Part shown: piece after piece, positions 3,414-11,502 of the stretch
Numbering within the stretch: position 1 is the stretch's first letter
Layout: each line of letters opens with the position of its first letter
Source: Stutzerimonas stutzeri
GTDB taxonomy: Bacteria; Pseudomonadota; Gammaproteobacteria; Pseudomonadales; Pseudomonadaceae
DNA length: 64,000 nucleotides
Assembly: GCF_024448985.1 (NCBI RefSeq)
Contig: NZ_JAMOII010000002.1
Span: 1-64,000 of the forward strand
Direction of reading: 5' to 3'
The notes under the pieces: generated by a model
Database searches by the model: none
What the model saw: the letters and a program-made list of their open reading frames with translations, nothing else
What the model was told of the DNA's origin: nothing
Translations under genes and position numbers: made by a program

Positions 3414-3926
3414 ATGGCCAAGCCCGCTGCCCGCTTATCCGACACCCACTCCTGCCCTATCCCCGGTCACGGTTCCAACCCGATAGCGGTTGGTTCGCCG
3501 GACGTCTTGTTCAACAACCTACCTGCTGCCCGAGTCGGTGACACCAGTAACTGCGGTGGCGCGATATCAGAAGGCGAAGCCACGATTTTGGTTAACGGCA
3601 AGCCGGTTGCATTCCTCGGCAGCCCCACCACGCACGGAGGCAGTATCGTGACTGGCTCCGGCAACATCCTGGTCGGCTCGTCGGTGAGCACGGCGCCCTT
3701 CACCGCGCCAGCGCCGATGCCTAACCAGTTGGACGAGCATTTTGTGCTCAGCGATAGCGATACCGGTCTGCCTTTGGCCAACCGCCCTTACAAGCTGAAG
3801 ACGGCCTCCGGCAACGTCATCGAAGGGGTCACTGATGAGCACGGTAAGACCAAACGTGCCGCGGCCTACACGGCCGAGACCGTGTCCGTCGAGTTCGCGC
3901 CACAAACCGAAATCTACATTGGCTGA
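3414..3926 (+). CDS. PAAR-domain protein (type VI secretion spike tip) with C-terminal extension
   Basis: 170-residue protein. Residues about 1-95 form a PAAR domain with literal PAAR motifs at 4-7 and 37-40 and candidate zinc ligands H12, C14, C47 and H74. Such domains cap the VgrG spike of a type VI secretion system and carry effectors. Residues about 108-165 (LSDSDTGLPLANRPYKL, then GVTDEHGKT) resemble the short transthyretin-like adaptor segment common in VgrG and PAAR proteins upstream of toxins. The start is set by AAGGAA at 3403-3408. It is followed 9 bases later by a candidate effector gene. No structural type VI genes lie in the window, so this is an orphan cassette relying on a system elsewhere. 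Confidence 0.88.
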   Translation: MAKPAARLSDTHSCPIPGHGSNPIAVGSPDVLFNNLPAARVGDTSNCGGAISEGEATILVNGKPVAFLGSPTTHGGSIVTGSGNILVGSSVSTAPFTAPAPMPNQLDEHFVLSDSDTGLPLANRPYKLKTASGNVIEGVTDEHGKTKRAAAYTAETVSVEFAPQTEIYIG

Positions 3927-3935
3927 GGGCGCAGC

Positions 3936-4892
3936 ATGTCGAGCACGGAGCCATTAGTCGCACAATCGAACCTGAGCCCTGCGAGCAATACGCAAGGCAC
4001 CCCCGTTCAGGCCAGGCTATTCAAGATCACTGACATTCCGGCAGCCATGGATGCCATCGATTGGCCGGTTTCCGCCGCGCTGATGCGCCACTGGTTTCAG
4101 GGGCAACCCTGGCCAACGGAAAATGGCGGCATGTCGCAGCGGGTCAAGGAGCACGCCGAATGGCCCCCAGCGCAGTACATCGAGGAAAGCATCGTCAAGA
4201 TGAGTTGGGTGGCCGGTTTCGAAAAGGTCCAGCCGGTTCTCGCCGAGCTGCGCAGAAGCTGGAACAACGCCGCCGCCATGGGTGAGATTCGTAAACATCT
4301 GCTCAAGGCCTATGGCGACAAGGGGCTCGGCTGCCATCGCCTGGTTTTCCCGAACCTGGCGAGCGCGGTGGAGCGCTTCGGCTACTTCAACTCACGCGCG
4401 ATCACCTTTTCCAAATGGAGCAGCGAAGGTCTCAACGACCTGCGCGGAGCGCTGGCGGACTTCAACCTGCGGGTGGCGGCCGAGGGCGACGTAGAGGTTC
4501 ATGCAGATCGCATCCTGTTTCGCCCGAGAACATTGCTGTTCTATGCCGAGGACAATTACGACTTCAACGACGACGGCTCGGTGTTCAGCCAGCCGCTGGG
4601 CTACTGGAACTTCGATGGCATCGCTCCCAGCCTGCTGGCGGCCACGGCGCACAATGCCGGCGTCGATGCCGTCTCCCGCGGCATCATGCAGCGGTCGTTG
4701 TTCAACATGAGTGAGCAGAACCAAAGGCGCTATATAGACGAGCAGCGCAAACGCTACATGCTTGTGTTGAACAGACATTTCGCCGATTACCGGGCCAGAT
4801 ACAAACGAGGCGGAGACTTCCGCGTGTTTTCCGATCTGCTACGCGAACCCTTGCCACCTGGCACGCCCGCCATCACCCTGCCGAAACACTGA
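3936..4892 (+). CDS. Candidate PAAR-associated type VI effector (DUF6402-like)
   Basis: 318-residue protein with no signal peptide or membrane segment. I do not recognise a catalytic domain. The segment ALMRHWFQGQPWP (residues about 48-60), the WPPAQYIEESIVKMSWV segment (about 75-92) and the FRPRTLLFYAEDNYDFND segment are reminiscent of the DUF6402 family often found beside PAAR genes; I recall this family only tentatively. Position between a PAAR gene and a small exported protein is the classical effector slot. The downstream gene begins one base after its stop. Function as a toxin is inferred from context alone. An adaptor role for a missing effector is an alternative. Confidence 0.6.
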   Translation: MSSTEPLVAQSNLSPASNTQGTPVQARLFKITDIPAAMDAIDWPVSAALMRHWFQGQPWPTENGGMSQRVKEHAEWPPAQYIEESIVKMSWVAGFEKVQPVLAELRRSWNNAAAMGEIRKHLLKAYGDKGLGCHRLVFPNLASAVERFGYFNSRAITFSKWSSEGLNDLRGALADFNLRVAAEGDVEVHADRILFRPRTLLFYAEDNYDFNDDGSVFSQPLGYWNFDGIAPSLLAATAHNAGVDAVSRGIMQRSLFNMSEQNQRRYIDEQRKRYMLVLNRHFADYRARYKRGGDFRVFSDLLREPLPPGTPAITLPKH

Positions 4893-4893
4893 C

Positions 4894-5304
4894 ATGAATA
4901 AAGCCATTCTCGCTGTATGCAGCCTTCTCGCCGCGCTCGCCCTGCTCTTTGGCTGGAGCCTTAACGATGCACTGAGCGCGCCGCCGTCGGTTTCGCAAGT
5001 CAGTCCGCAAGGCGGCCATTTGATCGAAAGCGTGCCGGTACAGGGCCTGCTCGCCCCTGGCGGTGGCCTGTCGTATCTGCGCATCGTCGACCGTGCGGAT
5101 CGGTCGAAAGTATTTCGCAGCCCGCTCTTTACCAGCCGCTCAGTGGACATGCGGACGAGCGAGGACAACCAAAGCCTGGGCGTGACCTGGATCGCCTTCG
5201 ACAAGCGCACCCATGGCTTTACCCTGAGCATCCCTCAATGGCGCCCGGACTGGCGCAATATCTTCTTCAGCAATACGCCTTATGAGGTCGTGCCGAACGG
5301 GTGA
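4894..5304 (+). CDS. Small membrane-anchored or periplasmic protein, candidate immunity protein
   Basis: 136-residue protein with an N-terminal hydrophobic stretch (AILAVCSLLAALALLFGW, residues about 4-21), either a signal peptide or a membrane anchor, followed by a soluble domain of about 110 residues. The family is not recognised. Its ATG comes one base after the upstream stop, implying translational coupling with the candidate effector. Third position in a PAAR cassette and periplasmic targeting suggest an immunity protein against an effector acting in the periplasm or membrane. It could equally be part of the effector complex. A minus-strand frame over it looks spurious. Confidence 0.6.
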   Translation: MNKAILAVCSLLAALALLFGWSLNDALSAPPSVSQVSPQGGHLIESVPVQGLLAPGGGLSYLRIVDRADRSKVFRSPLFTSRSVDMRTSEDNQSLGVTWIAFDKRTHGFTLSIPQWRPDWRNIFFSNTPYEVVPNG

Positions 5305-5568: not shown

Positions 5569-5769
5569 TCAGGTGGGCTTCAACCCACCGCCCATCCAAG
5601 GAACCACCCGGCGTGCGGGTATGTCATTCCATGAGTTTCAAGCGAGGCGTTGTTATCATGTAATCGCCGCATGGACAAAAAAGCGTTGTCCACCCTACGT
5701 CGCCACACCCGCCTGCATGATCGAAGCCCCGCCATTGCGTAGGGTGGAAAACGGCGAAGCCTTTTCCAC
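5569..5769. repeat. Second composite dispersed repeat plus GTGGAAAA/TTTTCCAC hairpin
   Basis: GGTGGGCTTCAACCCACC is followed by CCATCCAAGGAACC, then TGGACAA (5672-5678) / TTGTCCA (5686-5692), CCCTACGTC, and a further hairpin GTAGGGTGGAAAA...TTTTCCAC (5744-5769). Stem sequences differ between copies but pairing is kept, as for the copies at 16-33, 3148-3171 and 26331-26348. Confidence 0.65.
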
Positions 5770-5804: not shown

Positions 5805-6353
5805 TTAATTAACTGCATCATCAGCGTTGGGATCGGGCTTCATCGCCAACCCTGCCCTTAGCATTAAAACGAAATATTTCGCCAGCAGGTGTAATTCATA
5901 TATCTCCTCAGATGTTTTTTCAATGGTGTACTGCCCGAAATTCTGATGTACAAGCCTATTACGCTCGGCTCCAATTTCAATAAAGGCTTTAATTGCTTTA
6001 TCAAGCGCATCGTCCATCGTTATTAACTTGCAAAACTCAGTTTTGAAATCTTCGCCAAACAAACCGAGAAACGCATTGCAATTTTTTGAATCCCAATTGA
6101 ATAGGCTATGATATTGTCTTGCTAGGCCTTTCTTTTGCACAAAAGATACTATCCTGTGATCGTTTTTCGTAACTTCTTGGGCTAGAGATACTATAATATT
6201 TGTTATCTCGGTCTCAAAAAAACTGGCAGACGCAAGTAGCACGGACTTCCTGAAGTTAGAGTCAGCTGCACTCTTCAATGAAATCTCACCACTTCCCATA
6301 AGAAACTCATCGATTTCTTTAACTTGACCATATAGAACTTGGACAGTATCCAT
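5805..6353 (-). CDS. HEPN-domain protein, putative RNase partner of the DUF262 protein
   Basis: 182-residue helical protein. Near the C-terminus it carries AERNRLVHQNF, matching the R-X4-H catalytic motif of HEPN ribonucleases (R131 and H136 counted from ATG 6353). The N-terminal FFETEITNIIVSL segment resembles RiboL-PSP/MAE_28990-type HEPN proteins. ATG at 6353 is preferred over the TTG at 6359, because GGAG sits seven bases before it. The gene starts two bases after the stop of the DUF262 gene, so the pair is translationally coupled. It is visibly AT-rich with rare codons, unlike the surrounding Pseudomonas genes, which points to horizontal transfer. RNA cleavage activity is inferred from the motif. 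Confidence 0.7.
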   Translation of the reverse strand: MDTVQVLYGQVKEIDEFLMGSGEISLKSAADSNFRKSVLLASASFFETEITNIIVSLAQEVTKNDHRIVSFVQKKGLARQYHSLFNWDSKNCNAFLGLFGEDFKTEFCKLITMDDALDKAIKAFIEIGAERNRLVHQNFGQYTIEKTSEEIYELHLLAKYFVLMLRAGLAMKPDPNADDAVN

Positions 6354-6355
6354 AG

Positions 6356-7621
6356 TCAAGCTCCGAGATAGCTTTCGACGACTTCAAACCGCTTTATGAC
6401 GTTAGCTGTATTCATGGTCCCAGCTACACAGGCTGCGGCGAAACCATCGTCATCAAGGATACTGCAAACTACATCGTTTGAAATTTTCGCTTCTATTAAA
6501 ACGTGGTCTGCACGTCGTTTATTCGCGAGCACCGCAAATAAAGATTCCAAAACAAAAATATTAAACCTTCTAGATTTCGAGCTTACAAACAAACTAGCAT
6601 CTACTTCAGCGATAGATTGTAGGAATGATATAAATAGCTTTTCTAATAAAAGGATTTGCTCAACATCGAATTTTTTTGCTTTTTTTGAAAAAATATTTAG
6701 GAAATTTGCCAATGATGGCTTGTAGCTTTTATACGCGTCAGCCATGGCGAAACAACGTATTAAAAGCTCATTATCCTTCATATGTATATCTAGATCCTGC
6801 ATGCCTAGAACTCTCCGCCACTCCGGATGATAATTAAGCCTAGCCACCATTGAGAAGAATTCTGAATGATAAAGACAAGCTCTAATTTCTTGTGGTCGTA
6901 GATTCACACCGCCTGAGTTTAGCCTGTTGAATATTTCGTATATAGCAGAGTCCCCGTCCTTTGGGGCGTTCTGCTTGACGATGATATTTCTGATAGGTCT
7001 CAGATCAAACTGAGACTTATAATCCCCCAACGTTGAGTAATTTAAACCATGAAATTTGTTTTTATGTGCGTCCGCGACTTTCGATAATATAAGCTTAAAT
7101 GGCTGAAAGTATTCGTCATCTTCAAGAACCTCGTCAGGAATACCGTTATGCTCAGTAAAAATTCTCCTGATTTCGGCGCGCTTTTCTTTCCTTGGAAACC
7201 TTTTTTTAATGAAATAGAAAATGGACATCATGCGCTGCTGTCCGTCAATAACAAGAAACTTATTTCTACCACTCTCATATAGAAATAGCTGAGGGACTGG
7301 CAAACCTAATAATAACGACTCAATCAGCTTGGATGCCTTCTTTATATCCCAAACAAAGTTTCTTTGAAAGCCCGGTATGATTATCGAGCCAGAATCTATG
7401 AAACTATTAATCGTCATTACATTGAAGTCATTCGGCGTTGCGGTAAGGTCATACTCGTCTATCTGGAACTCAGTATCTAACTCTTCTTGCTCTTCCTCTA
7501 CATTTAACTGTGAGGAATGGTCTTCGTAAAGGTCATCTTTGTTTTCAATCATATTCTTAGCACTCTCACTAGTATTAAGCTTTAACGTAGTTGCTTTGAT
7601 TACAAAACAGGTACATATCAA
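6356..7621 (-). CDS. DUF262 (GmrSD N-terminal / ParB-Srx-like) protein
   Basis: Up to 421 residues. After an acidic N-terminus (about 25-60), the DUF262 domain shows IIPGFQRNFVWD (81-92), then LLLGLPVPQLFL and the diagnostic FLVIDGQQRMMSI (122-134). In GmrS-like proteins this fold binds or hydrolyses nucleotides. The remainder is helical (EIFNRLNSGGVNLRPQEIR is the second typical DUF262 motif) and lacks the C-terminal HNH nuclease domain (DUF1524) of GmrSD enzymes. The start is uncertain: the first ATG (7621) lacks a ribosome site and an internal ATG at 7552 is possible without harming the domain. It is coupled to the HEPN gene downstream. A nucleotide-sensing subunit driving the HEPN effector is an inference. 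Confidence 0.8.
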   Translation of the reverse strand: MICTCFVIKATTLKLNTSESAKNMIENKDDLYEDHSSQLNVEEEQEELDTEFQIDEYDLTATPNDFNVMTINSFIDSGSIIIPGFQRNFVWDIKKASKLIESLLLGLPVPQLFLYESGRNKFLVIDGQQRMMSIFYFIKKRFPRKEKRAEIRRIFTEHNGIPDEVLEDDEYFQPFKLILSKVADAHKNKFHGLNYSTLGDYKSQFDLRPIRNIIVKQNAPKDGDSAIYEIFNRLNSGGVNLRPQEIRACLYHSEFFSMVARLNYHPEWRRVLGMQDLDIHMKDNELLIRCFAMADAYKSYKPSLANFLNIFSKKAKKFDVEQILLLEKLFISFLQSIAEVDASLFVSSKSRRFNIFVLESLFAVLANKRRADHVLIEAKISNDVVCSILDDDGFAAACVAGTMNTANVIKRFEVVESYLGA

Positions 7622-7723
7622 TTTTTTCAGCAGGATGGTCCATCAATGATGATAAAACTGTACCTGCCCCTAAAATAACAAAATCTGCCAAACAAATCGT
7701 TCGCTTTATCAATTGGCGATTCT

Positions 7724-8716
7724 TTAAATGAACAAACTGCCTTGTCCTTCGATATATTTTTTTGCATGACGGTATTTTTTTCCTTGTATTGTTTCAACCG
7801 ATAAAGGACCGTCAACTTTTTCAATCACGGTTGTGACAGCATATCCGGTGATCTTAACATCCCCAACTTCGTCTAGCTCGCGCTCTATACGTAACACACA
7901 TAGGATGGATGACCCATGCTGAAAACTAATACTGTCTAGCAACACCATATCTTTAAAAGCCAAATCTAGCATGTCAAAGCCAATTGGCTGACCGTTGTAC
8001 AAACCTTTCCACTTATATTTACCTTCCTTTAATACAGGAGAAACTATCTCAATTTCTGCCTCGACCTCTTCAGCTTTTAGCTTATTGCTATTTAGCACAT
8101 GCTTTCTAAAATCATGCCTTTCTACCTGTCGCTCTGCAAAGCGCGGAACAAAGTCCGAATCAAGAATAGCAAATCCGATTTTAGTGACTTCAGATCGCTG
8201 GCTAAGCATGGAATAAAAATTTGATTTTCGCTTGATTATTCTTAAATTTTTAGAAAGATTATTAGAAATATTTTCTGCTTTTTCAGGAGCAGGGCTTGAT
8301 CCATTTGCCTCTTCCCGTAAATTTTCGATATTTAGCTTAGCCTCTTCTATCAGTAACCTGTTTAGCTCTTTTTCCAGTTCCTCTTTCTCGGACTTGTGCA
8401 GCATGGGCGCTAAAGTAAGCATCAGCTGGGCCACCATAAGCACCACTGTGATTGCATTCGCATTGCCTTTGATAACGTCCCAAAAATCCCGAAAACCACC
8501 TTCCCTTGCTGCAGTTGCAATTAGCTCTGCCTCGACATCTAAGATCGCAGCAATTTCTGTGACTATCGCTAACAACTCAGCCTCGCACTTATTTCTAAGA
8601 AGCGCATTTATTTGGTGCGCCCCATCTCTCAAGTAATAGTGCAATTCAAACTTGTTGGCAATTTCCATATCCACATACCCATTGTAAAAATAAGAGAACA
8701 GGTTGATTTTAATCAC
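7724..8716 (-). CDS. Membrane-anchored coiled-coil protein of unknown family
   Basis: 330 residues from a GTG start that overlaps the helicase stop codon (GTGA, 8713-8716). An internal ATG at 8668 is an alternative start. The first 80 residues are helical (ELHYYLRDGAHQINALLRNKCEAELL). A single hydrophobic segment at about 84-106 (ITVVLMVAQLMLTLAPML) is followed by a charged helical, probably coiled-coil stretch (107-140). A C-terminal soluble domain follows, with alternating strands (GKYKWKGLYNGQPIGFDML). I do not recognise the family. It is AT-rich like the next two genes. A gap of 102 bases separates it from the DUF262 gene. It may anchor or sense for the putative system. Confidence 0.65.
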   Translation of the reverse strand: MIKINLFSYFYNGYVDMEIANKFELHYYLRDGAHQINALLRNKCEAELLAIVTEIAAILDVEAELIATAAREGGFRDFWDVIKGNANAITVVLMVAQLMLTLAPMLHKSEKEELEKELNRLLIEEAKLNIENLREEANGSSPAPEKAENISNNLSKNLRIIKRKSNFYSMLSQRSEVTKIGFAILDSDFVPRFAERQVERHDFRKHVLNSNKLKAEEVEAEIEIVSPVLKEGKYKWKGLYNGQPIGFDMLDLAFKDMVLLDSISFQHGSSILCVLRIERELDEVGDVKITGYAVTTVIEKVDGPLSVETIQGKKYRHAKKYIEGQGSLFI

Positions 8717-10596
8717 GCATATCTCTGCTGCAGTTCCCCAAGCCCCTCCCTTACCCCACCAATCGCCTCCTGCACTCTCTTCGTAAAATCCGAATGCGCC
8801 TGATACGTCATCACTAACCGATCAATCGCCCGCGTCATCGCCACATACAGCAACCGCGCTTCATCCGCTTCGGCCTCGCCCTTCTTCGGCATTTCACCCA
8901 GGCCCGGGACCAGCACCAGCCCGAATTCCAGGCCTTTGCTGGAGTGCATGCTGACGATCTTCACGCTGTCTTCGCTGCCGTAGAGTTCACCGCGGCCTTT
9001 GGAACTGGTGCCTGAAGCGTAGGCGATGCCGGCTTGGGTCAGGGCGCGTCCGGCGGCTTCGGCCTGGGCGTTGTTGCGGTAGATGATGGCCATGTCGTTG
9101 AGCACGCGGCCGTTGGCCTGTTCGTCGCGGATGCGGGTGACGAGGCAGTCCCATTCCTGCCAGTGGCCTTCGCAGTGGATGAGTTCGGGGAAGGCGCCGC
9201 GGCGGCCGGCGCTTTCGGGGACGATGATGGGGACGCCGTCTTCACCGGCATCGCGGCCGGAGAGCAGTTCGGTGGCGAAGGCGCGGGCGACCGAGAGCAC
9301 TTCTAGCGTGTTGCGGTAGTTGAGTTTGAGGATGGTGGTGCGGCCCTGGGCCTGGATGCCGACGCTGGCGAAGCTGAAGTCCAGCCCGGTCTTCTTGCCC
9401 TTACCGCGGTAGATGGACTGGGCGTCGTCGTAGAGCACCAGCAGCGCGTTGGTGGCAGGATCGACCATCTGAACGACGAGCTTGAACCACTCCGGTGCGA
9501 AGTCGTGGCCTTCGTCGATCAGCACGGCGGAGTATTGCGCGCGCGGGATCTGGCCACGGTCGACGCCGTCGATGGTGAGCTGAATCATCTGCTCCATCTT
9601 CTGGCCGACCGGCAGGCGCGGGCTGGGCTTGTCCACCTGGTAGGCCGTGAGCATGTCGGAGCACCACGCATGGAAGTTGCGCACGCTGACCTTCTCGCCC
9701 AGGCCTTTCTCCTCCAGCACTTGGCACAACCGGCCTGCCAGGGACTTGTTGTAGCAGAGCACCAGAATCGGCTTGGGCGAGACCTTGGCCAGCTGTTCGC
9801 AGCGGTAGCCGAGGATCATGGTCTTGCCGCTGCCGGCCGCACCGTGGATAACGCGATGGCCTTCGCCCAGTGAGCGGGCAAGTTGTTCCTGCTGGAGGTC
9901 CATCACCTTGATGAGGCTTGGGATCGGCACGTCGCCATCGGCAAACAAGCCAAACTGGCCGGGCAGGGCGCTGACGCGGACCTCGGGGTATAGGTGATAG
10001 CGCACGCGGTCGATCTGCGGCAGCGTCAGGGTGCAGGGAAACACGTGAGGGAACATGTTCCACAGCCGCTGCTGAAAGGCTTCCGGATCGGCCGTTTCGG
10101 TCATTTCATCTTGGAAGATGACACGCTGCGGGTCGAGCACGTCGTGGAGGTCGGTCTGTTCGAACTGGCGGCGAGTGATATTGGTCAGCACCACGCCCCA
10201 GCCCCACGGCATGATCAATTCGCCCGGCCGGGGTGAGCTTTTGCTCTGGCGCAGCAGCGGGTCCTTCTTCAGCACCATGTCGACTTCTTTGACGTAGGTG
10301 TGAGCTTGCAGCATCGGGTTGGCCACGGTCTTGAGGCCGCTGCTGGTGTGCAGGGTGGCCTGGCCGTGATTCATGCTCTGGATGGTGGCGAGCTTCCAGT
10401 CCTTGACCTCAAGCACAAGGATGCCGCGCCGCGGATGCAGCACGACGAAGTCGGGGTAGCGGGCCTTGGGGCCGACCGGGACGTTGCTCCAGCAGAGGTA
10501 GTCGTCTTCGAGCAGCTTTTCCAGCCGCTCGGCAAAGCGGCGTTCGCCAGGCGTATCGAACTGGCATTGCGACCGAACGGGGAAGAAGCGCGCCAT
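8713..10596 (-). CDS. NERD-domain UvrD/Rep-family superfamily I helicase
   Basis: 627 residues. Residues about 12-130 form a NERD nuclease-related domain with YPDFVVLHPRRGILVLEVKDW (the acidic D-ExK pattern, D49, E63 and K65). The rest is a UvrD-like helicase: Walker A GAAGSGKTM (252-260), Walker B LIDEGHD (359-365), a QxxxR-like LNYRNT motif, MHSSKGLEF and LLYVAMTRA near the C-terminus. Such proteins couple a nuclease-like domain to DNA translocation and occur in phage-defence loci. ATG 10596 follows an excellent AAGGAAGG. Its base composition is GC-rich, unlike the three genes fused behind it by the GTGA overlap. About 40 bases of its 5' end are duplicated at 11450-11488. The biochemical role is inferred. 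Confidence 0.88.
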   Translation of the reverse strand: MARFFPVRSQCQFDTPGERRFAERLEKLLEDDYLCWSNVPVGPKARYPDFVVLHPRRGILVLEVKDWKLATIQSMNHGQATLHTSSGLKTVANPMLQAHTYVKEVDMVLKKDPLLRQSKSSPRPGELIMPWGWGVVLTNITRRQFEQTDLHDVLDPQRVIFQDEMTETADPEAFQQRLWNMFPHVFPCTLTLPQIDRVRYHLYPEVRVSALPGQFGLFADGDVPIPSLIKVMDLQQEQLARSLGEGHRVIHGAAGSGKTMILGYRCEQLAKVSPKPILVLCYNKSLAGRLCQVLEEKGLGEKVSVRNFHAWCSDMLTAYQVDKPSPRLPVGQKMEQMIQLTIDGVDRGQIPRAQYSAVLIDEGHDFAPEWFKLVVQMVDPATNALLVLYDDAQSIYRGKGKKTGLDFSFASVGIQAQGRTTILKLNYRNTLEVLSVARAFATELLSGRDAGEDGVPIIVPESAGRRGAFPELIHCEGHWQEWDCLVTRIRDEQANGRVLNDMAIIYRNNAQAEAAGRALTQAGIAYASGTSSKGRGELYGSEDSVKIVSMHSSKGLEFGLVLVPGLGEMPKKGEAEADEARLLYVAMTRAIDRLVMTYQAHSDFTKRVQEAIGGVREGLGELQQRYA

Positions 10597-10613: not shown

Positions 10614-10831
10614 GCGGACCGGTGCAGATCGTAGCGTCGCAGCGGAACCGTGAACGAATGCGCAGGTGCTGCGCGTGATGGCACATTAACCACTGCTTAC
10701 GTACGGGTAAAGCAGACGATGGATTAATCCCGACTTTTCACGCCGGCTCCTGACGCGCGGTCATTCGCGCCATTTGCACTTTCCCCTTGCCAACCCTGTC
10801 CACCCTGCATGACCCACTTGCGGAGGTGATC

Positions 10832-11371
10832 ATGGAAGGCATGTTTTTCAGTAGCGGAACGACGCTGATACGCACACTGGTGGTTGGCGTGCTGGCCTAT
10901 ATCAGCCTGATCTTGCTGTTGCGCCTTTCGGGGCGGCGTACGTTGTCGAAAATGAATGCGTTCGATCTGGTGGTAACGGTGGCGCTGGGGTCGACCTTTG
11001 CGACGATTCTGCTCAATCGCAATGTGTCGCTGGCCGAGGGGGTGCTGGCCTTCGCGCTGTTGATCGGGCTGCAGTATGTGGTCACCTGGTCGAGCGTGCG
11101 GGTGGCGTGGGTGCGGCGTACGGTGACGGGTGAGCCGGCGCTGCTGTTCTATCGCGGGCGCTTTCTCGGCGACGCCTTGCGCGCGGCGCGGGTGACCCAG
11201 GACGAGGTGCGTGCCGCGGCGCGCAGTCAGGGGCTGGCCGCGCTGGATGGCATCGAGGCGGTGGTGCTGGAGACCGATGGCAGTTTTAGCGTGATTACCG
11301 ATGGCGCGGGCGAAAGCCGTTCCACGCTGGACGGGGTGAATATTCCAAGGCCGAATGAAAAGGGCGTTTAA
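10832..11371 (+). CDS. DUF421 (YetF-like) membrane protein
   Basis: 179 residues. Three hydrophobic segments fill the first 95 residues (TLVVGVLAYISLILLL; ATILLNRNVS; GVLAFALLIGLQYVV), with the conserved LRLSGRRTLSKMNAFDLVVTVALG signature between the first two. A cytoplasmic domain from about 100 to 170 contains the family's EPALLFYRGRFL and LDGIEAVVLETDGSFSVI. The function is unknown; members are often stress-inducible. ATG 10832 is fixed by a perfect GGAGGTGATC immediately upstream. It runs opposite to the neighbouring helicase and sits between two direct repeats derived from the helicase start region. Confidence 0.88.
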   Translation: MEGMFFSSGTTLIRTLVVGVLAYISLILLLRLSGRRTLSKMNAFDLVVTVALGSTFATILLNRNVSLAEGVLAFALLIGLQYVVTWSSVRVAWVRRTVTGEPALLFYRGRFLGDALRAARVTQDEVRAAARSQGLAALDGIEAVVLETDGSFSVITDGAGESRSTLDGVNIPRPNEKGV

Positions 11372-11449
11372 GGCCCTGGCAGGGTGCCGCGGCGGCTGAT
11401 CGACAGGCCTATGCCCAGGCGACCGCGCCGGTCCGGTTGCCACAACGGA

Positions 11450-11502
11450 CTGGCATTGCGACCGAATGGGGAAGAAGCGGGCCATCTTTAGCTTCCATGG
11501 TG
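11450..11502 (-). pseudogene. Relic of the NERD-helicase gene 5' end (right direct repeat)
   Basis: On the minus strand from 11485 this reads MARFFPIRSQCQS, matching the first dozen residues of the intact helicase (MARFFPVRSQCQF). After that the frame diverges into sequence with no family similarity, so it is a start-codon fragment, not a gene. The surrounding gap (11372-11717) has no other supported gene. Confidence 0.7.

Follow-up and report, generated by a model that had tools for sequence, protein, structure and literature searches.

A probable promoter-anchored chromosomal site for co-directional defence cargo behind a NERD-UvrD helicase gene of Stutzerimonas stutzeri

The first 64,000 nucleotides (nt) of contig NZ_JAMOII010000002.1 of Stutzerimonas stutzeri (assembly GCF_024448985.1; this whole stretch is called the window) contain four minus-strand open reading frames (ORFs) at positions 5805-10596, which encode a NERD-UvrD helicase, a PDC-S42 protein (S42), a DUF262 protein and a HEPN protein. 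A preliminary description had placed the ORFs correctly and had proposed that they form one defence operon. A comparison with related genomes led to a different interpretation, namely that the locus is probably a promoter-anchored, orientation-locked chromosomal site for defence cassettes. Its fixed end would be formed by a conserved promoter-like element together with the start of a native helicase gene. One to several low-GC cargo genes would follow in the direction of the promoter and would thus be readable from it. The sequences themselves show that the cargo changes between genomes, that its orientation is common, that the flanks are shared, and that element and cargo persist where the helicase gene is truncated or was not detected.

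The base composition of the four genes is not uniform. The GC content at third codon positions (GC3) is 0.83 for the helicase gene, similar to the four flanking genes (0.73-0.83), while it is only 0.38-0.39 for the other three genes, a break that is absent from the preliminary description. This indicates that the set is of two origins, with a native-like helicase gene and, judged by composition, an imported low-GC trio.

Within the family 36 of 196 genomes, which belong to 11 of 19 genera, have the helicase (E 1e-100); throughout, each species was represented by one genome. A DNA search yielded helicase matches in 26 of the 56 genomes of the window's genus, 7 of them full and 19 partial. For a comparison of intact sites, helicase genes of at least 77% identity were used, which resulted in 15 sites from seven genomes of a Stutzerimonas group and eight of a Pseudomonas oryzihabitans group. 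Low-GC ORFs on the same strand follow the helicase at 14 of these 15 sites (L037 has none). In 13 of the 14 cases the cargo starts between -19 and +118 nt from the helicase stop codon, overlapping it in several genomes, and in L153 it starts at +667 nt. The 13 other intact helicases are followed by cargo that differs from that of the window (Table 1). The ORFs were called with a simple procedure, which judges genes of host-like GC content and genes on the opposite strand poorly, and profile names stand for resemblance, not for function.

The exchange of the cargo was also evident from pairwise comparisons. Directly behind the helicase none of 28 pairs exhibited homology in the Stutzerimonas group (eight loci, including L037 and L053), and none of 28 in the oryzihabitans group. 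Homology was present in the first 1 kb upstream in 14 and 28 pairs, respectively, and in the region 2-6 kb downstream in 12 and 28 pairs. When 74 cargo proteins were compared, four between-locus pairs matched at 1e-5, and one of these represents the same cargo. The helicases of close relatives are 90-98% identical, yet their cargo is different. The window is 94.8% and 92.4% identical to L151 and L152, respectively, along the 8 kb that end with the helicase gene, beyond which different genes and then the same DUF6402 flank follow, i.e., a clean swap. Three loci of the oryzihabitans group extend this picture. L179, which has no helicase, contains the same flanks about 550 bases apart, and thus helicase and cargo are missing together; L178, also without helicase, has other DNA between the flanks, and L182 could be aligned only at the LysR side.

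Matches to PADLOC profiles at or below 1e-5 were obtained at 10 of the 15 sites that have cargo and a helicase gene, whether intact or a fragment, part of the cargo proteins having been scanned. Much of the cargo that was scanned falls into defence-type families of PADLOC or Pfam; the cargo proteins of L042, L044, L046 and L151 had no PADLOC match at 1e-5. A plasmid search with a cargo protein of L046 gave no match, while a search with a cargo protein of L041 gave 164 records, and the one that was examined had no annotated helicase.

The constant part of the site is the promoter-like element, TTTACC-N17-TAATGT in the window, where it occurs once and 0 matches are expected. The form TTTACC-N17-TAAYGT was found exactly in all seven intact loci of the Stutzerimonas group, in seven of the eight oryzihabitans loci (the eighth has one mismatch) and in 17 of 17 helicase remnants that retain the gene start, so that it is exact in 31 of 32 start-keeping loci of the two groups. 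Spacers of 14-19 bases were allowed in this search, and all exact matches but one had 17. None of the 46 loci with a more distant helicase, of which 10 have 66-76% and 36 have 56-60% identity, contains the element. In several remnants and in the oryzihabitans loci it is embedded in upstream DNA that is otherwise unlike that of the window. In eight destroyed helicase copies, 6 of 75 columns are variable from -125 to -50, 9 of 50 from -50 to 0, and 24 of 60 in the dead coding part; the difference between the first and the last region has a Fisher value of 1.6e-5.

The remnants revealed that the cargo persists where the helicase has decayed. In total 19 remnants were examined, which comprise 18 genomes with a partial helicase and a second copy in G208. 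The first bases of the gene are kept in 16 of the 19 partial helicases, and the 5' pieces end after 47-345 nt. Low-GC ORFs were found within 3.5 kb or up to the contig end in 17 of the 19 remnants, the exceptions being L282, which lies at a contig end, and L289. The remnant cargo includes AbiU (2.4e-109), a SIR2 protein (4.6e-61), an AbiP/putAbiC-like protein and an OLD/AriA-like protein, and PADLOC matches at or below 1e-5 were obtained at four of the nine remnant sites that were scanned. Stubs ending near nt 65-72 had been considered as a site-specific junction; this was rejected in favour of decay and descent, because L258, L261 and L262 share sequence behind nt 69 and G189, G199 and G205 have a similar internal deletion (by eye). 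One stub, at L225 (8895-11892), stands in front of a second DUF262-HEPN pair (HEPN_MAE_28990), with a C5 cytosine methylase close behind, a set that may join DUF262 sensing to DNA methylation.

A search with the 29-base pattern alone gave matches in 49 of the 56 genomes of the genus, many of which have a further copy elsewhere. Ten copies in genomes without a helicase match were selected, i.e., these promoter-only sites are defined by the element and the missing helicase match and not by a shared chromosomal place. All ten precede low-GC, co-directional ORFs, and a small number of helicase codons appears to be left in two of them (by eye). Behind the element, L305, L306, L307 and L311 have leaders that are similar to one another and unlike the helicase leader (by eye), which may be another kind of leader at the site. 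An eleventh match, in G220, was dropped: the DNA around it is host-like (GC 0.51-0.59), and the ORFs are reverse, one of them ribosomal-looking by eye. As a small control, three further copies of the element (L300-L302) are situated in host-GC DNA, with a GC content of 0.61-0.67 behind them.

The occurrence of cargo behind remnants, and at sites where no helicase was detected, shows that the helicase is not a required neighbour. This bears on a first alternative, in which exchangeable effectors work with a helicase that stays constant and acts as sensor or DNA processor, that is, a modular, Gabija-like system with many alternative partners. It would fit the 14 of 15 sites at which cargo accompanies an intact helicase, often with overlapping or nearby start codons, the OLD-type cargo beside the UvrD helicase in L038 and L040, and the selection acting on the gene: dN/dS, the ratio of nonsynonymous to synonymous substitution rates, is 0.04-0.23 for the intact helicase in nine pairs, indicating purifying selection. 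It is nevertheless rather unlikely, because cargo also stands behind a helicase that lacks codons 1-404 (L053), behind 5' stubs (17 of 19 remnants) and at the ten sites without a detected helicase; moreover, S42 and the DUF262-HEPN pair occur elsewhere without the helicase, and the helicase occurs without such cargo in L037 and on plasmids.

The orientation of the cargo was analyzed at 45 sites (15 intact, one fragment, 19 remnants and 10 promoter only), with low-GC ORFs defined as having at least 100 codons and a GC content below 0.505. Such ORFs were present at 42 sites, and at 41 of these the first one has the direction of the element or the helicase. The exception is L293, where a 111-codon ORF overlaps a plus-strand one. 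Altogether, 98 of 100 low-GC ORFs are co-directional and two are reverse. L285 and L288 have one shared cargo, and in L278 an IS30-like transposase (by eye) lies between stub and cargo.

These results allow a second alternative to be weighed, that of an ordinary defence hotspot, which gathered its cargo by chance and recombination; orientation and element would then be a result of gene order and descent, not of expression. Pseudomonas is well known to have variable defence genes situated between its core genes, as described in the accessible text of PMC10250203, and descent together with the divergent YetF gene could account for part of the conservation of the element. We regard this alternative as improbable, since 98 of 100 low-GC ORFs point in one direction, in contrast to the either orientation reported in the available part of PMC9122126 for the hotspot of P4-like satellites, and since the element is kept amid upstream DNA unlike that of the window and beside a decayed coding part.

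The 3' end of the helicase gene is itself variable. At all eight loci of the oryzihabitans group the helicase DNA is common up to the DRLVM codons, and a genome-specific tail of 12-26 codons follows. GC3 is 0.86-0.91 in codons 1-590 versus 0.19-0.69 in the tails, which still encode a helicase-like C-terminus with the pattern S-x-[FL]-[ST]. The end of the convergent LysR gene at the other border of these loci is variable as well (L041 of the eight could not be aligned there). In the Stutzerimonas group the last helicase codons differ in the window, L151 and L035, and they are alike in L036, L037, L152 and L153.

Toxin tips are exchanged in Rhs and contact-dependent inhibition (CDI) proteins. 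A dedicated exchange site, at which a fixed promoter and leader would serve as loading dock and the cargo would travel as a unit of helicase C-terminal tail and defence genes, is doubtful for the helicase locus; in this reading the helicase may, in a similar way, favour exchange at the 3' end of its own gene. In 22 loci no orphan tails of the helicase, in the style of Rhs and CDI, were found behind the cargo. The variable tails would be explained by donors that have the same helicase or by selection that keeps the tail functional. A 21-base run before the tail was tried as a recombination site; it is conserved, but not clearly beyond coding conservation. The AAATAAATCTGTCC repeat was likewise rejected as an exchange site, having 0 matches in eight oryzihabitans-group loci when two mismatches were allowed. 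Direct repeats of at least 14 nt were not found inside either end region of the window cargo, in a search that did not cover repeats between the two ends.

The only clear second helicase copy in the 22 loci is a 5' relic in the window, L151 and L152. In the window it lies at 11446-11485 on the minus strand, upstream of the intact gene and beyond YetF, and is 93% identical over the first 40 nt and 86% over 66 nt including the leader. This leader resembles a second leader type found before other remnants.

In the preferred interpretation of a promoter-anchored cassette site, the helicase would be the original occupant, which was often lost while promoter and cargo stayed. Imported defence genes would be retained where they landed downstream of a promoter that was already present and were oriented correctly, and the cargo would be expressed from the element and selected in that orientation. 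Strains would exchange cargo by recombination in the shared flanks, including the helicase 3' end.

Several observations speak against this interpretation. The intact helicase probably has a function of its own, as suggested by the purifying selection. The divergent YetF gene starts at -191 in window-like loci and may explain part of the upstream conservation. The promoter-only sites were picked by eye from the match list, in genomes without a helicase match. L037 has an intact helicase and L289 a remnant, both without low-GC cargo, and L282 is cut off. Distant helicases on seven plasmids that were examined have no tight low-GC cargo; on one of the seven (Pantoea) a type VI secretion gene overlaps the stop codon. 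A general cargo pattern was also missing from 61 helicase loci of other genera, and thus the feature is confined to the two groups. Finally, low GC content is no proof of defence, and the PADLOC rates, which have no baseline, stem from 24 of 42 cargo sites (matches at or below 1e-5 at 10 of 15 and four of nine), the ten promoter-only sites lying outside the scan.

The families of the four genes were verified with profile searches. The domains that had been assigned to the first gene were recovered (Pfam NERD 4.5e-13, UvrD_C 1.1e-20), and its protein matches PADLOC C3a187 (NERD+UvrD) at 8.9e-166. The DUF262 identity held (Pfam GmrSD_N 8.9e-31, with the motifs FQRNFVW and DGQQR present), with PADLOC matches to NsnA (1e-57) and PD-T4-2_A (4.9e-41). 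The HEPN identity with its R-X4-H motif was confirmed as well (Pfam HEPN_RiboL-PSP, PF18735, 1.5e-18); R131 and H136 are invariant in an alignment of five HEPN proteins, two of which are nearly identical. In contrast, the 330-residue protein "of unrecognised family" is PDC-S42, a full-length model match to the PADLOC profile over residues 17-329 (6.2e-112). The single membrane span ascribed to it is possible: It has one hydrophobic stretch with a mean Kyte-Doolittle value of 2.14 (1.42-2.18 in five relatives). The gene spacing depends on the start codons. The four-base GTGA overlap exists only if S42 starts at GTG 8716; the start was taken as ATG 8668, because the PADLOC profile begins at residue 17 and the relatives align from there, which results in a gap of 44 bases. 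Likewise, the 102-base gap requires that DUF262 starts at TTG 7621, and with the first ATG, 7552, it comprises 171 bases.

Table 1. Features of the site in the window (positions in nucleotides) and cargo at other loci.
Feature	Position	Strand	Remarks
Promoter-like element TTTACC-N17-TAATGT	10683..10711	-	-115 from helicase start; constant part of site
NERD-UvrD helicase gene (PADLOC C3a187)	8713..10596	-	host-like composition; first gene of site
PDC-S42 gene	7724..8668	-	start taken as ATG 8668; low-GC cargo; probably solo unit
DUF262 (GmrSD_N) gene	6356..7552	-	ATG 7552 assumed as start, frame open up to 7621; low-GC cargo
HEPN_RiboL-PSP gene, R-X4-H	5805..6353	-	low-GC cargo; paired with DUF262 gene
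YetF/DUF421 gene	10787..11371	+	divergent neighbour; upstream region in common with element
Far flank: 136-codon ORF and DUF6402 gene	3936..5304	+	common to window, L151 and L152
L035			cargo: SIR2 with DUF2971
L153			cargo: TIR
L036			cargo: DUF2971/PDC-S31
L152			cargo: HEPN
L038			cargo: OLD in two ORFs
L039			cargo: HEC-01 A and B
L040			cargo: AAA_15/OLD-like
L041			cargo: AAA ATPase
L043			cargo: 5'-nucleotidase/PDC-S08
L053			cargo: AAA_13/PDC-S06 behind helicase without codons 1-404

The co-occurrence of the parts decided against a third alternative, the single dedicated four-gene defence system of the preliminary description. The four genes share a strand, are closely spaced and all belong to PADLOC or HEPN families. 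The membrane (S42), DUF262 and HEPN genes were not found together elsewhere, and the helicase is not regularly tied to them, but occurs in the same chromosomal context with other cargo. S42, the DUF262-HEPN pair and the helicase each occur apart from the others. No locus outside the window contained more than two of the four genes (tblastn 1e-4, all loci fetched up to that test). With this co-occurrence, the differing composition and the other cargo behind helicases of 90-98% identity, the four-gene system was ruled out for practical purposes and is very improbable. The suggested link to defence gained support, since PDC-S42, NsnA/PD-T4-2_A and C3a187 are all PADLOC entries.

S42 is rare, being present in two of 198 family genomes (E 1e-10) and three of 369 class genomes (E 1e-20), the window included. 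At all five other S42 loci (L002, L003, L054, L191 and L192, the latter two on short contigs; two further Vibrio plasmid matches were left out) it is not accompanied by a DUF262, HEPN or helicase gene of the window's kind (tblastn 1e-4). In L191 (3593-5100) two genes beside S42 resemble, by eye, the pair of cargo genes of L046, and thus cargo families may recur in other defence loci. Relatives of the DUF262 protein were found on 25 plasmids. On all three plasmids that were examined, one from Bacillota and two from E. coli, the DUF262 gene is followed by a PF18735 HEPN gene, and S42 and the helicase are absent; among the three HEPN proteins, two are almost identical. S42 and the DUF262 protein had no relatives in viral contigs, and S42, the only protein searched there, had none in phage records; helicase relatives of 23-52% identity were found in twelve viral contigs.

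The window cargo thus appears to consist of a solo PDC-S42 gene, a likely single-gene defence candidate, and a DUF262-HEPN pair of known type, which is also found alone on plasmids. The pair is of a known kind because a 2013 survey and a review, as far as their accessible text goes, already describe both domains together: RiboL-PSP-HEPN in an operon with ParB, which is elsewhere equated with DUF262 (PMC3710099), and the DUF262 and PF18735 HEPN domains of PD-T4-2 (PMC10952713). According to the available part of the latter, DUF262 NTPase activity in SspE switches on a linked nuclease domain. The proposal that the DUF262 protein controls the HEPN RNase is our best guess for this gene pair: The DUF262 NTPase (DGQQR) would act as a sensor of phage DNA or of a change in nucleotides and would set the HEPN RNase free, and infected cells would be stopped. 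S42 would act on its own.

The weakest alternative, that the site belongs to an integron or to some other site-specific array of cassettes, would agree with the fixed promoter and changing co-directional cargo and with an integron integrase in the same genome, but is extremely improbable, as that integrase is on another contig and attC-like core pairs were seen at none of 14 cargo ends (0.4 expected; part of the flanking ORFs were scanned for recombinases). The integrase itself (G000:C14:90438-91382, L295) is full, with 502 bits versus a cut-off of 265, and a chromosomal integron in this genome is therefore probable.

Some further observations concern neighbouring genes and distant helicase relatives. 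About 50 bases behind the HEPN gene, at 5684-5753, there is an inverted repeat of 16 nt (94%), which by eye resembles the repetitive extragenic palindromic (REP) sequences of Pseudomonas. At the far end the site adjoins genes for a PAAR-motif protein and a DUF6402 protein (window 3414-4892, plus strand), the layout expected of a type VI secretion cargo pair. L166 (1325-5377), from a family member with a low-GC genome, has a P-loop ORF of 1350 codons that overlaps the stop codon of a 48%-identical helicase by 8 nt, and in Pantoea vagans (L274:3498-6648) a helicase relative lies within a type VI secretion cluster, overlapping a VasL gene.

Should a single conserved promoter drive the cargo, the search for new defence genes could start from the 29-base element and the helicase start in front of them, even on short contigs, and the candidates would include cargo without a PADLOC match at 1e-5 (L042, L044, L046, L151, L152, L276, L278, L281 and L283). 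Such a site would keep its defence genes expressed and allow them to be swapped with no integrase of its own. In addition, closely spaced neighbours on the same strand can be unrelated cargo, and neighbourhood searches for multi-gene systems may be misled by them. The literature search, which left most subscription papers outside, yielded no description of a NERD-UvrD helicase or promoter as anchor of changing defence cargo; no paper was found for PDC-S42, and among the papers listed for NsnA all were unrelated.

The last two window genes have the domain pair of PD-T4-2, and on the three plasmids the DUF262 gene also directly precedes the HEPN gene. They differ from PD-T4-2 in that the HEPN protein, despite its PF18735 match, has no PADLOC match at E 1, and in that NsnA outscores PD-T4-2_A for the DUF262 protein. 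The Nsn system is presumably Menshen; an NsnB-type ATPase was absent from the matches listed at E 1 for the other three window proteins (for the helicase, the best 25 of 37). Gabija, composed of an OLD protein and the UvrD helicase GajB, is resembled by L038 and L040, where OLD-type cargo adjoins a UvrD helicase, and the best GajB match of the window helicase is 4.6e-26. Unlike in Gabija, a NERD domain stands in front, and OLD is one of many cargos and is not found among the window's four genes; the three genes behind the helicase had no PADLOC match to GajA or Old. An integron cassette array likewise has a fixed promoter and changing cargo that is read in one direction, but here no integrase lies beside the site and attC-like pairs are missing from the 14 cargo ends. 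The hotspot of P4-like satellites, as far as presented in the accessible part of PMC9122126, also has a different system per element at the same place beside conserved anchor genes; its systems occur in either orientation, while the site described here is chromosomal and 98 of its 100 low-GC ORFs have one direction. The core defence hotspots cDHS1 and cDHS2 of P. aeruginosa, for which recombination in conserved flanks has been proposed, are similar in that different defence systems with a GC content below that of the genome lie between conserved chromosomal genes (PMC10250203, available text), and different defence systems between conserved flanks are indeed what was found at the helicase site. 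However, the hotspots described there span tens of kb (cDHS1 median 26 kb) and contain several systems, whereas the cargo of the present site measures about 1-4 kb, has one orientation and lies immediately behind a single element and gene start.

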